Shown here: one piece after another, positions 34,747-44,993 of the stretch
Layout: every line of letters begins with the position of its first letter
Numbering within the stretch: the first letter of the stretch is position 1
Source: Daucus carota subsp. sativus
Lineage: Eukaryota; Streptophyta; Magnoliopsida; Apiales; Apiaceae
DNA: 64,000 bases
Assembly: GCF_001625215.2 (NCBI RefSeq)
Contig: NC_030387.2
Location: 6,104,501 to 6,168,500 of the forward strand
Direction of reading: 5' to 3'
Program-made: the position numbers and the translations under genes
Notes under the pieces: model-generated
What the model was told of the DNA's origin: nothing
What the model saw: the letters and a program-made list of their open reading frames with translations, nothing else
The model's database searches: none

Positions 34747-34850
34747 ATATATATATATATATATATATATATATATATATATATATATATATATATATAT
34801 ATATATATATATATATATATATATATATATATATATATATATATATATAT
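34747..34850. repeat. (TA)n microsatellite
   Basis: About 52 uninterrupted TA units. It forms the left border of the inverted-repeat element at 34851. Confidence 0.95.
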
Positions 34851-35179
34851 AGTTACTCTTCTTAAAATGAGAACCGGGAGAACTTCCTTAATTTATCATA
34901 TTTTGACTAATCTAAACATCAAACTAGTGGGTACCCAATATAAAAAATGTATATAAAACTAGTCTCTTCCTAGCTAGTCAAAAAAAAATTCAAAAAAAAA
35001 AATCCACTGCCACGTCATCAGTGTTTTTTTTTTTTGTTTTTTTTTTCGGCTAGCTTAATGATATACATTTTTTGTGAAGGTGCCCCTAGCGGGGCCCTTC
35101 AAATGAATGAGATTTTGATAAATTAAAAAAGTTCTCACGGTTCTCATTTTAAGAAATTTCTCATTTGAGCAAGTGCCTA
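34851..35179. mobile_element. MITE-like inverted-repeat element between TA tracts
   Basis: The left arm cttaaaatgagaaccgggag, then aactt-cttaatttatca, pairs by inversion with the right arm near 35113-35155 (tgataaatt, aagttctcacggttctcatt, ttaag). Arms are about 45 bases with few mismatches. TA repeats lie on both sides. It is non-coding, with A and T runs in the middle. Family not recognised. Confidence 0.7.
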
Positions 35180-35190
35180 TATATATATAA

Positions 35191-35440
35191 TGATCTTGAC
35201 GTTTCTTCAGCAACAGAAGCGTGTATCATGCAATTATGAAAAAATATTATGTACAATCTTATTGCACATAGTAATATTCTGATTGATTATGTGTAATTCT
35301 ATATTCCTAAACTACCCCTTATCAACTAGATTTAATTGCTTATTTTATAAATTACTGATTATATCATGATTATAAGATCAACGGTAGATAGACGGGTTCC
35401 TCAGTTTTCTTGATAAGCTGGGTTTTCTTAGGATCTTCCC
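35191..35440. mobile_element. Segment bounded by TA tracts on both sides, possible element
   Basis: About 250 bases between tatatatata (near 35179-35189) and atatatatatatata (near 35442-35456). The ends (aatgatcttgacg and ggatcttcccc) show only weak inverted similarity, so this is inferred from the pattern of the neighbouring elements rather than from clear termini. Confidence 0.3.
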
Positions 35441-37189
35441 CATATATATATATATAGGCTTTTATTCTATGGAGACTCATTTTATATGGAGTCCAATGGA
35501 GAACCACCTCCATTGATCTTGACCATCAAATCAGAATTACATCTAACGGTTACTATAACAGATAATAAAAATTAAGATATTATTACATATAATTTGTTAC
35601 ATCTGTTATTTTTTCCTCTCTCTTCTCTCTCTCTTCTCTATCTCGCTAGCGGCTCTTTCATCTCTGTCGCGTGTTATCTCCCTGGAGGCCGTTGTTCTCA
35701 TCTCTCTTTAGTTTAAACCACTATGACATGGCGTCTTCAACAAATGAAGCTCATTCATCCACTATCAAGCTCAGATTTGTGATAATGTCGATTTAACTAA
35801 TTTATCAGGTTCATTATCTCTCTCCCTTGATTTCGATTTTGTTACACTTACAATTATCTCTCTACATCTCTGTTGATTTTGATTTTGATTTTGATTTGTT
35901 ATATGTTAAATTTTAAGTTTTATTATTTCTCAGATATGTTTTAGTTTCGATTGATATTAATTTTGCCTGGTTCCGTTGTAGAATCAAATCAATTCGTTTT
36001 ACTTTTAAGGTTTTAGTTGTATTGTTCCTTATTGCTCTCGCTCTCTGTTGATTTTGATTTGTTAAATGTTGAATATCAAGTTTAATTATTCATCTGATAT
36101 GTTTTAGTTTAAGTTTGTATTATTATTTCCTGATCTTGTTCTAGAATCAATCAGTTTGTTTTAATTATTTAGTTTTTAGCAGTAATGTTGCTTTGGTTCT
36201 ACTGGGGAATCTTTTTTGTAAATAATAAAGTTTGTTGGTTCTATGGTAGAGTCAAAATAATAATTTTCCTAAATATCTACTTTTGTTATAGTTTAGATTC
36301 CACTGTAGAACCAAATAATGTTTTACGAATCAGTTCCAAAGGTAGAAGTTTTGCTTACAAACTATGTATTCTTTTAGATTATATTTTTTTACTTGCTTGC
36401 AAATATACTGCCATGTCGAGTTCAGTAGACACTTGAGTTTTAATTTACACGATTCCACTGTTAGCTCTCTGTTCTGAGCGGACTTTTGTCAAGAGGTGTC
36501 ATAAACTAGAGCTGATTAAGTCAGGGGCTGAAATATTATTAGCAATTTGTTCTTTGTAGATATCATCAGATCCCTTCTCTTTTGCATTATATTGAAGGCT
36601 TCCCTATTTCATGTAAAGGATTCTATTTACATTCTTTGGTTTTTCTTCTAGTTAGGATTTTGTTATACTCCGTATGTTTTATATGTTTTTTACATTTTTC
36701 TTGATAAGCTGCATTTATAGATGTTACAAATGTAAAGTTTTAAAACTCCAAGCTGGCACTTGGAAAAGTAATTCATTTTTCAGAACTATATACTCTTGAA
36801 TAGTTACTGATAAATGATAATTTATGTATAGAACTGGTGCGAATAGATAGTTTACTCGAATCTTTTGCTCATATATTTCTGAATAGACGTTCTTTATTCT
36901 TCTGATATTTTTATTTGGAATTTGTAGCCACTTACAAGATGCTTGATGTTTATGTATCACGTGTTTAAACTAGGTTTGTTTCAAGCTTTTACATTTTTTT
37001 TTATTCTCCCCACAAATCACATAATTCATTCTCATATGTACTTTGATAATTTACTTGTATTACTTTTATGATCAGCACATGTCCAACATTGACTGAAGTT
37101 TTTTGTTTCTTTATTTTATTCCAGATATATGCTCGTATACTTTTCTATCTTGCATCTTCGTTATCATGCTGGTCTCGTCACCGATGAAA

Positions 37190-37490
37190 TGCTTTCTTTG
37201 CCAAAAACACCAGATATTATTGAAGTATATCTTTGTGATTGTTGCAGTTTCTGATGCTATTGCAGATCTTTTTGAGAGTGTTAGAATGATATTTGCAGCT
37301 GGGGAGAAGGAGAGGACTGAAGGTTCTGCAGGATTCATATTGGTTACATCCTTTACAATGTCAAAAGTACACTCTTTTCTGGTCTCTGAGGGTGTAAGCC
37401 CAACTGATTTTGATGCTTACATCTGTAATAGTGGTGCAGATCTCTATTATTCATCTCCTCAATCAGAAGAGAATCCATTGTTGTTGATTT
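37190..37490 (+). pseudogene. Captured fragment of a sucrose-phosphate synthase gene
   Basis: The plus strand reads FVIVAVSD, AGFILVTSFTMSKVHSFL, VSEGVSPTDFDAYICNSGAD and LYYSSPQSEENP. This matches the C-terminal, phosphatase-like part of plant sucrose-phosphate synthases (remembered FDAFICNSGGDLYY and GFIL-TS---SEVHS). Only about 85 residues are present, out of more than 1000 in a full enzyme, and the flanks are repeat DNA of the 8.2-kb element. No other exons of the gene are visible. A captured piece, not a functional gene. Confidence 0.75.
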
Positions 37491-37584
37491 GTAAGTATTT
37501 ATGTTTCTCTTGTTATCTAAGAAGCATCTCAAATATATTTTTCTTTCAATCAAATGCTCATCTGTTGTTGGTAACTCTTTCAGA

Positions 37585-43230: not shown

Positions 43231-43628
43231 ACCTACAAAAAAACATACACGTTTGTATCTTGCTACAATTTTTCATAAAAACAAGTCGAAATCAAAGAAT
43301 TGACGATAACTAGTACCTCTTCCCCAACATGTCCTACTCGATGCTCATGATAATTCACAGAAACAAGTTCAAATCTGAGAAAATATGCTTACGATAACCT
43401 CCCTGTTTCGTTTTCTTCTTTCCTCTCTCGCGCTCTTTCTCTCGCTCTCTCCGTGTGTAATCGTGGGCAAGTGTGTGTAAGTGTGTAACTCTGGTTGTGT
43501 TTCAACTGTTTATATTTTTGTTTTAACTATTTTATTTAATCAAATCACAGCCGTTCCTTCAGATTAAGGGTTAGATTAGGGGTCTCCACGGTACTCCATA
43601 TAAAATGGGTCTCCATAGAGTGGGACTC

Positions 43629-43706
43629 TATATATATATATATATATATATATATATATATATATATATATATATATATATATATATATATATATATATA
43701 TATATA
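43629..43706. repeat. (TA)n microsatellite followed by a GA run
   Basis: About 39 TA units, then gata and an 18-base GA run to about 43727. Separates the 8.2-kb element from the next inverted-repeat element. Confidence 0.95.
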
Positions 43707-43735
43707 GATAGAGAGAGAGAGAGAGAGTTAAGTTC

Positions 43736-44130
43736 TATGGAGTACATAAAAACATTGGAGTATTGGAGTACAAATCATAATTTTTTAGTTTGATCCTATA
43801 TAATATCTTTGATTATCTAAATTTTGATATAATCTATCATTTATAAGTTGTCTTGCACATAATTGTCAATTAATCATTAATATCTTTAAACTTTAACAAG
43901 TTTTAAGATTATTGTTCTGCTTATTAGTTATATTGCAGAACATAGAGTCCTATGATTTATAAAAGTAATTATTCTAGCATTTGATCACGATATTTATGTT
44001 GCAGAACATGATGTGCAGGTTGTCAAATATTTACAAATATTATTGGACAAAAAAAATTGAAATTTAGATGACTAGATTACATTTTATCAAACTTTGTACT
44101 CCAATACTCCAATTTTTTTTGTACTCCATA
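43736..44130. mobile_element. MITE-like inverted-repeat element (395 bp) between TA tracts
   Basis: The left arm tatggagtacataaaaacat plus tggagtattggagtacaaa pairs with the inverse of tttgtactccaatactccaa through tactccata at 44093-44130: about 38 bases with few mismatches. It is flanked by TA/GA repeats on the left and TA repeats on the right. Non-coding. Its outermost word, ctatggagta, is shared with the ends of the 8.2-kb element, which suggests a related end sequence. Confidence 0.7.
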
Positions 44131-44149
44131 TATATATATATATATATAT
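44131..44149. repeat. Short (TA)n tract between two elements
   Basis: About ten TA units between the 395-bp and the 844-bp inverted-repeat elements. Confidence 0.9.
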
Positions 44150-44993
44150 GGGTCCTGTTCCCTGACAATTGATTGTCAGGGAAGATTTATCCAACATACT
44201 ATTTCCCAGCCGTTGGATCGACGATCCAACGGCTGGGACAAAAGATTTTTTTTTTTTTAGTATCTGCGCTTTTTTTCCGCGGATACTGTTCTTTCCGCGA
44301 GATTGTAACGCGGACACTTCGGGGGTATCCGCGCATATTAACCGCGGATAACACAGAACACTGCGGTTGATCTGAAATCTTGCTCGCCTGTAGTTCTTGA
44401 TTGGTGTTTTGGTGGAGATTTATGCTTTGTTAGAGATACGCAGCCTAGTCAGAGTAAAAAGGTAAATTTGTAGTGATTTTGAGATTAGTCTCTCTCTCCC
44501 CCCTCTCTTTGCGTGTGTATCAGTGTATATGTGTTTGGGGAAGGGGGTTGGGGTTTGGCACATTATTTGGTTTTTTTTTTCTGAACAAGATTGGATGGGT
44601 TTATGGGTTAATGTGTTTTTTCTGCTGTGTTAAATTTTCAGTTTGTATTATGAAATTCTTTTACTTGCTGAAAGTGGGGTGGTTATTTGACTTTTGATTA
44701 TTTAAGTAGGTATTGTTGGAGAAGTGTTGGACTTTGTATAAATTTATTGTCATGTACTGAAGCAAGCCCACTGCTATGTGTTATCCGCGGTTAATATGCG
44801 CGGATACTTCTGAAGTGTCCGCGTTACAATCTCGCGGAAGGCACAGTATCCGCGGAAAAAAAGCGCGGATAGTAAAAAAAAAAATCTTTTGTCCCAGCCG
44901 TTGGATCGTTGATCCAACGATCCAACGGCTGGGAAACAGTATGTTGGATAAATGTTCCCTGACAATTATCAATTGTCAGGGAACAGGACCCCC
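44150..44993. mobile_element. 844-bp foldback element with 205-bp arms and nested palindromes
   Basis: The left arm (44150 to about 44355) and right arm (about 44772-44993) are inverse copies at high identity: gggtcctgttccctgacaat, ttatccaacatact, cccagccgttggatcg, gcgctttttttccgcggata, cgcgagattgtaacgcggac and atattaaccgcggataacac. Each arm contains its own palindromes: ccctgacaat-tg-attgtcaggg at 44160-44181 and a perfect 16+1+16 hairpin at 44205-44237. The centre (about 44360-44770) is unrelated, GT-rich, and has a donor-like aaaaaggtaaat. No transposase. A flanking TA tract lies on the left and atata on the right. It resembles foldback or MULE-type non-autonomous elements. The high arm identity suggests recent activity or gene conversion. 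Confidence 0.75.

Follow-up and report, generated by a model that had tools for sequence, protein, structure and literature searches.

In the carrot genome (Daucus carota subsp. sativus), a stretch of about 10 kb on contig C7 raises the question of how inverted-repeat elements of very different sizes came to stand head to tail, joined by tracts of perfect (TA)n. The stretch lies in a window of 64,000 nucleotides (C7:6104501-6168500, G000), which we analysed together with the whole assembly of 441 Mb in 11 contigs; C-numbers denote contigs and L-numbers loci fetched from the genome, two of which, L001 and L032, both lie inside the window. The elements are called E1 to E4, with a fifth candidate, X5. 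Our data make it likely that E1, E2 and E3 (X5 probably included) belong to the non-autonomous Mutator-like elements that target microsatellites, known as MiMs (miniature inverted-repeat transposable elements, or MITEs, inserted in microsatellites) or SaTar elements.

The initial annotation had described four inverted-repeat elements and a possible fifth, all separated by TA tracts. Terminal inverted repeats (TIRs) were assessed by comparing the inverted-repeat score of each element with the best of 500 shuffles. The scores of E1 (78 vs 31), E2 (55 vs 27), E3 (60 vs 37) and E4 (292 vs 28) all exceeded those of the shuffled sequences, and the sizes of the four elements are near those first proposed. 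Five perfect TA tracts of 12-105 nt were found, and the surroundings are AT-rich (24-37% GC across 34-46 kb of the window). On the other hand, E4 has TA on its left only, its right flank being CCAGATATAATAG, and it lies outside the chain. X5 gave no detectable inverted repeat (score 17 vs 31 in shuffles, n=500) and no recognisable element terminus on its left, but its right end carries spaced copies of AAGAAAAC-like words and resembles other TA-flanked ends. X5 is therefore probably the remnant of a further TA-targeted element with one recognisable end.

Table 1. Features of the chain and of the gene-carrying element E2 (positions within the window)
Feature	Positions	Strand	Size	Remarks
TA tract 1	34747..34851		105 nt	perfect
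E1	34852..35177	+	326 bp	inverted-repeat MITE
TA tract 2	35178..35189		12 nt	perfect
X5	35190..35441		252 bp	probable remnant of a further TA-targeted element
TA tract 3	35442..35456		15 nt	perfect
E2	35457..43628	+	8172 bp	TIR element with gene fragments (best read as Pack-type); no transposase detected in 11 of its ORFs
Fragment in E2	37001..37222	+		match to C7:19870017-19870239, 95% over the last 93 bp
Sucrose-phosphate synthase fragment in E2	37222..37493	+		95% to C3:6422033-6422305
Gene-like stretch in E2	37527..37896	+		related to C8:5065720-5066098 and C4:42002495-42002678
Fragment in E2	39644..40553	-		95% identical to C7:26463271-26464176
TA tract 4	43629..43706		78 nt	perfect; then GATA/GA tract to ~43724
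E3	43725..44127	+	about 403 bp	MITE, family length 417 bp; right terminus shortened
TA tract 5	44128..44149		22 nt	perfect
E4	44150..44991	+	842 bp	long-TIR element, neighbour of the chain and not a member

Flanks were then tabulated for genome copies of each element, as the initial annotation had proposed, counting TA tracts of 10 nt or more that lay within 40 nt of a recognised end. For E1, 40 of 196 candidates were scored with a query that itself contained a TA tract, so that the sample is biased towards TA-flanked copies; within this biased sample, TA was found at 18/18 left and 18/18 right ends recognised by pattern. Direct examination of 20 forward copies from the same sample gave a left tract of at least 10 nt in all 20 and a right tract in 16, the right end being undetected in the other four (L095 and three copies in L093). 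In L093 (C2:58897500-58900400) the three E1 copies are spaced by ~1 kb and their left flanks resemble one another closely; they are perhaps a tandem duplication of an E1-bearing unit. The queries for E2 and E3 lacked the TA tract. All 22 E2 candidates were scored, giving 23 matches, and TA was found at 16/18 recognised left ends and 5/6 right ends. For E3, 40 of 1005 candidates were scored, and TA was found at 46 of 71 recognised ends. The array of TA-bounded elements is real for E1, E2 and E3.

The search for E4 (230 candidates, 40 scored, 15 best rows fetched) gave the opposite picture. None of the eight other places with readable ends, two of which share a flank, was flanked by TA, and a ninth place gave no end. 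Four places showed 9-bp target duplications by eye, namely TTTTTTGTT, TTTTACTTA, ATATAACTT and ATGTC(C/A)GAA. Since its other copies have ordinary flanks with 9-bp duplications, the pattern that the initial annotation had named as refuting its idea, E4 belongs to a different, untargeted family. A preference for (TA)n as a target, one of the possibilities raised at the outset, hence holds for E1, E2 and E3 by the genome-wide counts and fails for E4. The same counts bear on the idea that the elements are chance neighbours in a TA-rich region: E4 is one, and for E1 to E3 the flanks elsewhere in the genome reduce that explanation to a negligible probability.

The mode of insertion was most readable in E3, a young and numerous family with copies both in TA tracts and outside them. 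In each of the best 40 places, at least 391 of 392 bases align at 97-100% identity, and the copy in the window has lost the last 12-14 bases of its right end relative to the others. From 45 matches, three without recognised ends and two with repeated flanks were removed, leaving 40 tabulated copies. Outside TA tracts, eight of these carry 10-bp target duplications, of which seven are perfect (TACATATTAA, TACCTTCTTA, TACATTTATA, TAATTTATAT, ATATAAGAGA, TGTATAATAT and CCATTTGGAA) and the eighth agrees at nine of its ten positions; read as 9-bp duplications, the same eight copies give only 1-5 matches of 9. T is the first base in 6/8 and A the last in 6/8. An even duplication that starts with T and ends with A leads one to expect a particular register where the target is (TA)n, and that register was found: among 398 perfect 21-base E3 ends genome-wide, TATATATA precedes 108 and the other register, ATATATAT, precedes 23 (binomial p 2.3e-14, the two ends of one copy not being independent). 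In addition, at 12 tabulated E3 sites where TA flanks both ends and the repeat is perfect, an even (10) duplication fits nine and an odd (9) one fits three; the left end is shortened in two of the three odd-type sites and in one of the nine even-type sites. E3 was also seen beside other E3 or E3-like copies in L034, L038, L041 and L042, in L034 with no TA tract between them. Given the 10-bp duplications outside TA tracts, the insertions are best read as the work of a Mutator-type transposase that prefers TA-rich targets.

These duplications also bear on the possibility that the chain consists of Tc1/mariner (Stowaway-like) elements, whose insertion duplicates the dinucleotide TA. TA does adjoin the ends, but the duplications of E3 are 10 bp long, and for E3 this explanation was rejected. 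The ends of the chain elements are furthermore unlike the Stowaway consensus. A MITE lying inside E2 at ~42297-42560 (CTCCCTCCGTCCC ... GGGACGGAAAGAGTAG), which we take to be Stowaway-like, looks different from them. Tc1/mariner elements are accordingly a very improbable source of the chain.

The flanking repeats seem to have grown after insertion as well. Tracts of at least four GA units between the TA tract and the element were found at 12/95 ends of the type starting with GAG (E1-left 5/18, E3 6/71, E2-right 1/6; some E1-left copies start with GGG) and at 0/36 ends starting with GGC (E1-right 0/18, E2-left 0/18), a contrast of small numbers. Because the two ends of E1 differ in this respect although both come from one insertion, the GA tracts point to growth from the element's own end. 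The suggestion that the elements create TA repeats on insertion is therefore borne out in part, in that GA tracts adjoin only ends with a GAG-starting consensus. If slippage at the junction were the main cause, the TA tracts would be mainly a consequence of insertion anywhere in AT-rich DNA. This account draws support from the GA tracts themselves and from published sites: the TA tract is reported to be longer at occupied than at empty sites for MuTAnT of Medicago (PMC4486113), and empty sites are likewise shorter in maize (cited in PMC5907723). It is nevertheless unlikely as the main cause, since the eight E3 copies whose duplications lie outside TA match the window copy about as closely as the others do (96.9-97.7% identity) and have no TA tract at their ends. 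Target preference and tract growth are not exclusive, and both seem to operate.

Another route to such flanks is homologous recombination, in which circular intermediates with microsatellite filler between the element ends enter genomic microsatellites (the model of PMC5907723). Many flanks without a clean duplication, mixed GA/TA tracts and the non-nested arrays would all agree with it. Against it, E3 shows perfect 10-bp duplications in non-repetitive flanks, and the restriction of GA tracts to GAG-type ends explains the odd tracts by growth from the element end; also against it is one copy (L081) with GA on its left and TC on its right, a combination impossible from any 10-bp target copy. 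We consider recombination improbable, and less probable than slippage as the main cause.

We therefore return to Mutator-type transposition, for which the following course of events is proposed. A Mutator-type transposase supplied in trans, whose identity we infer, would cut and paste E1, E2 and E3, and each insertion would produce a 10-bp target duplication, by extension from E3 also for E1 and E2. Preferred targets would be A/T-rich, with T first and A last, a preference that (TA)n fits at every second base. Each insertion would then leave TA on either side of the element; slippage can extend these tracts, and the next element would find its target in them, in a presumed order of insertion. 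New insertions going into the flanking TA tracts would let the elements line up without interrupting one another. E1 to E3 have the features by which MiM and SaTar elements are recognised, namely TIRs, a majority of copies flanked by (TA)n and non-nested arrays joined by microsatellites, and E3 adds a duplication of the 9-10-bp class outside microsatellites.

Several observations weigh against this reading. No transposase is tied to any of the families, and duplications outside TA tracts were not seen for E1 or E2. Half of the tabulated E3 copies (20/40) agree with no duplication of 9 or 10 bp even if one mismatch is allowed, some through a shortened end, and one of the perfect duplications, that of L087 (CCATTTGGAA), is not TA-like. 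Perfect TA of 8 nt directly adjoins only 131/398 perfect E3 ends, and since this is a third, the preference of E3 is strong and not absolute. Finally, recombination between TA tails borne by the elements would preserve a register too, so that it is the 10-bp duplications and not the register that argue for transposition.

E2 differs from the other members in its size and content. Most or all of its left end (~780 bp) is present at 11 further places (L010-L019, L022). Two relatives are of similar length: L062 (8.73 kb) has TA tracts on both sides, and L063 (8.46 kb) has a short stretch of TA at its left but no TA at its right. Members of only ~430 bp with the same two end types were found at L029 and L031. 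The initial annotation had suggested that a single transposase may act on elements of widely differing size, because two of them seemed to share the outer word CTATGGAGTA. Within the E2 family, from ~430 bp to 8.2-8.7 kb, the proposal is supported by the common end types; for E2 and E3 together it is not. In a search of the window, CTATGGAGTA occurred only at the E3 left end and at 40184 inside E2, and as an exact word shared by the ends of both it was rejected. The outer word of E2 is CTATGGAGAC, and the ends of E2 and E3 are related through a shared CTATGGAG without being identical.

Host-gene fragments lie between the TIRs of E2, comprising a sucrose-phosphate synthase piece and two further pieces with 95% matches. 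The synthase fragment is joined directly to the piece matching C7:19870017-19870239, whose comparison began at 37001, so that this piece may extend further left. The matching C3 locus (L099) scores as plant sucrose-phosphate synthase (TIGR02468, E 1.4e-71). The fragment on the opposite strand (39644-40553) reads like an AAA-ATPase, judged by eye and without a Pfam or PDB hit; a PDB search with the synthase and AAA-like fragments gave no hits. The gene-like stretch at 37527-37896 had been considered as a separate capture. This was dropped, since its C4 place also holds E2 backbone: the backbone is matched at C4:42002730-42003103 (counterpart of E2 39274-39628) and at C8:5060023, and the stretch may thus belong to an older gene that the E2 family carries. 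That the other genome places are donors and E2 the recipient is an inferred direction, best founded for the synthase, which has paralogues on C5 and C6.

Transposase domains were sought in open reading frames (ORFs). None was found in 11 of the 39 E2 ORFs of at least 50 aa, nor in three each of L062 and L063, 17 ORFs in all. Other hits comprised, in L062, a LINE-type zf-RVT piece and, beneath the Pfam cut-offs, four weak matches: one E2 ORF gave MENTAL and DUF7548, and one L063 ORF gave Nmad2 and PAP_PilO. Domains of Mutator-like elements (MULEs) are abundant in the genome; none of the 150 scored, of 813 candidates, lies inside E2, L062, L063 or L064. From its gene fragments, and with no MULE domain found in the 11 ORFs tested, the most plausible reading of E2 is that of a Pack-type element, the member of a family that has captured pieces of genes. 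Pack-MULEs likewise carry gene fragments between TIRs; E2 stands in TA tracts, and because its flanks are TA tracts, its target duplication is unreadable. Its ends resemble those of E3, the family with 10-bp duplications. The motif TAGAATC/GATTCTA was over-represented in E2 (18 vs 1.9 expected), L062 (16 vs 1.7) and L063 (18 vs 1.8), where the copies are perhaps binding sites or repeated backbone.

Two MULE ORFs are candidates for relatives of the E2 family and serve as leads. The E2 backbone (39200-39633 and 40556-40700) matches C5:28877185-28878179 at 93-94%, and a MULE ORF of 666 aa (C5:28880664) lies ~2.5 kb from this match. Another, of 842 aa (C3:8139417), lies 6 kb from a 76% match to the backbone. 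One candidate for an autonomous E3 element, in which an apparently unpaired E3 end lies 3.3 kb from a MULE ORF (C2:24728492), was not confirmed. This end has a diverged partner ~417 bp off and so is part of an ordinary MITE; the 651 bp read on the far side contained no E3 end.

Arrays were also found beyond the chain: 11/38 loci, L001 and L032 of the window included, had element ends on both sides of a TA tract, the library of ends having come from the same 38 loci. Ends beside TA tracts often begin with GG or GA, followed by a TTC/CTC-type word and three copies of a family-specific 7-8-mer at 0, ~17 and ~27, for example ATGAGAAC, ATGGAGAC, TGGAGTAC, TACAAAC and TAGAAACC. The three-copy pattern (at least 15/21, first spacing 16-19) was present in 10/22 distinct GG/GA ends, whereas 200 shuffles gave a mean of 1.3 and a maximum of 5, and other first spacings, taken in twos, gave 0-3 of the 22. 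Excluding the ends on which the pattern had been discovered left 7/19 vs a shuffle mean of 1.2 (max 4), in a set that is partly dependent, its ends having been seen beforehand and some being related to E1 or E2. A looser selection of ends gave 12/28 at spacing 16-19 vs 1-5 at four other ranges. The remaining 85 flanks showed no clear spacing preference (24 at 16-19 vs 18-22 elsewhere). Among the 129 unselected flanks, the top spacing pair was 17 + 10 with five ends, followed by three other pairs with four (grid mean 0.9); a first lag analysis, made without choosing element-like ends, was noisy.

The three-copy ends may simply be homologous. The pattern suggests one lineage of predicted transposase-binding ends, and a search for a paper on the combined end architecture, judging by title, found none, which is a weak test of novelty. 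We tentatively propose, with rather less than even confidence, that many TA-targeted families here form one Mutator-type lineage with three-copy-word GG/GA ends, in which targeting would come from a 10-bp preference in the T...A register together with junction slippage and would involve no recombination pathway.

Other repeats were noticed in the window. Direct repeats of 691 bp at 45894-46584 and 58005-58695, 99.4% identical and 12.1 kb apart with GC-richer sequence between them, are probably a young long terminal repeat retrotransposon beside the chain. Positions 52944-53750 hold a tandem array with an 81-bp unit containing ACCCGGGTAAGCATTGCCCGGG, and 12908-13363 and 13828-14283 form a 456-bp direct repeat of 100% identity. 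A pair of ~288 bp in inverted orientation (20330-20617 and 59860-60146, 91%) is probably another dispersed repeat.

TA-targeted Mutator-like MITEs, their arrays, their duplications and the growth of GA tracts have all been published, so that the finding belongs to a known kind; relatives with MULE transposases and 9-10-bp duplications are described in PMC4486113, PMC5907723 and PMC8449440. For carrot itself, 15 MiM families with 2156 copies are reported, three of them tied to putative autonomous Mutator elements (PMC8227079). These are likewise TA-flanked MITEs with weak TIRs, and E1 and E3 may be among the published families; a gene-carrying 8-kb member such as E2 is not mentioned in the parts of that report considered here. 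SaTar elements of guayule and rice, of which about 30% are linked, also form non-nested arrays of unrelated TA-joined elements with TIRs and some 10-bp duplications; the SaTar paper favours an extra recombination step, whereas the E3 data fit plain transposition with junction growth (PMC5907723). MuTAnT, a MULE with (TA)n targets, also shows duplications in the few copies outside perfect TA, but they are of 9 bp against 10 bp in E3, and a putative autonomous member is known (PMC4486113). The Ac-mMITEs of pineapple share TA targets and clusters and have 9/10-bp duplications, and GA/TC tracts at their GA-type ends were attributed to replication slippage; TIR similarity is described for two families there, while here the three-copy pattern was scored in 10/22 distinct GG/GA ends (PMC8449440). 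Rice Micron MITEs, as described in other papers, also target TA microsatellites. What the present analysis usefully adds is the register, the duplications of E3, the words repeated in the ends, and E2 with its gene fragments.

How MITE copies reach TA tracts is unclear according to the carrot authors (PMC8227079), and the guayule recombination model is called speculative by its own (PMC5907723). Because E3 is young, numerous and present both in and outside TA tracts, the question of targeting can be tested by counting. The data speak for ordinary transposition that duplicates 10 bp and prefers TA in one register. E2 suggests that elements several kilobases long, with fragments of host genes on board, are moved by this targeting system as well.

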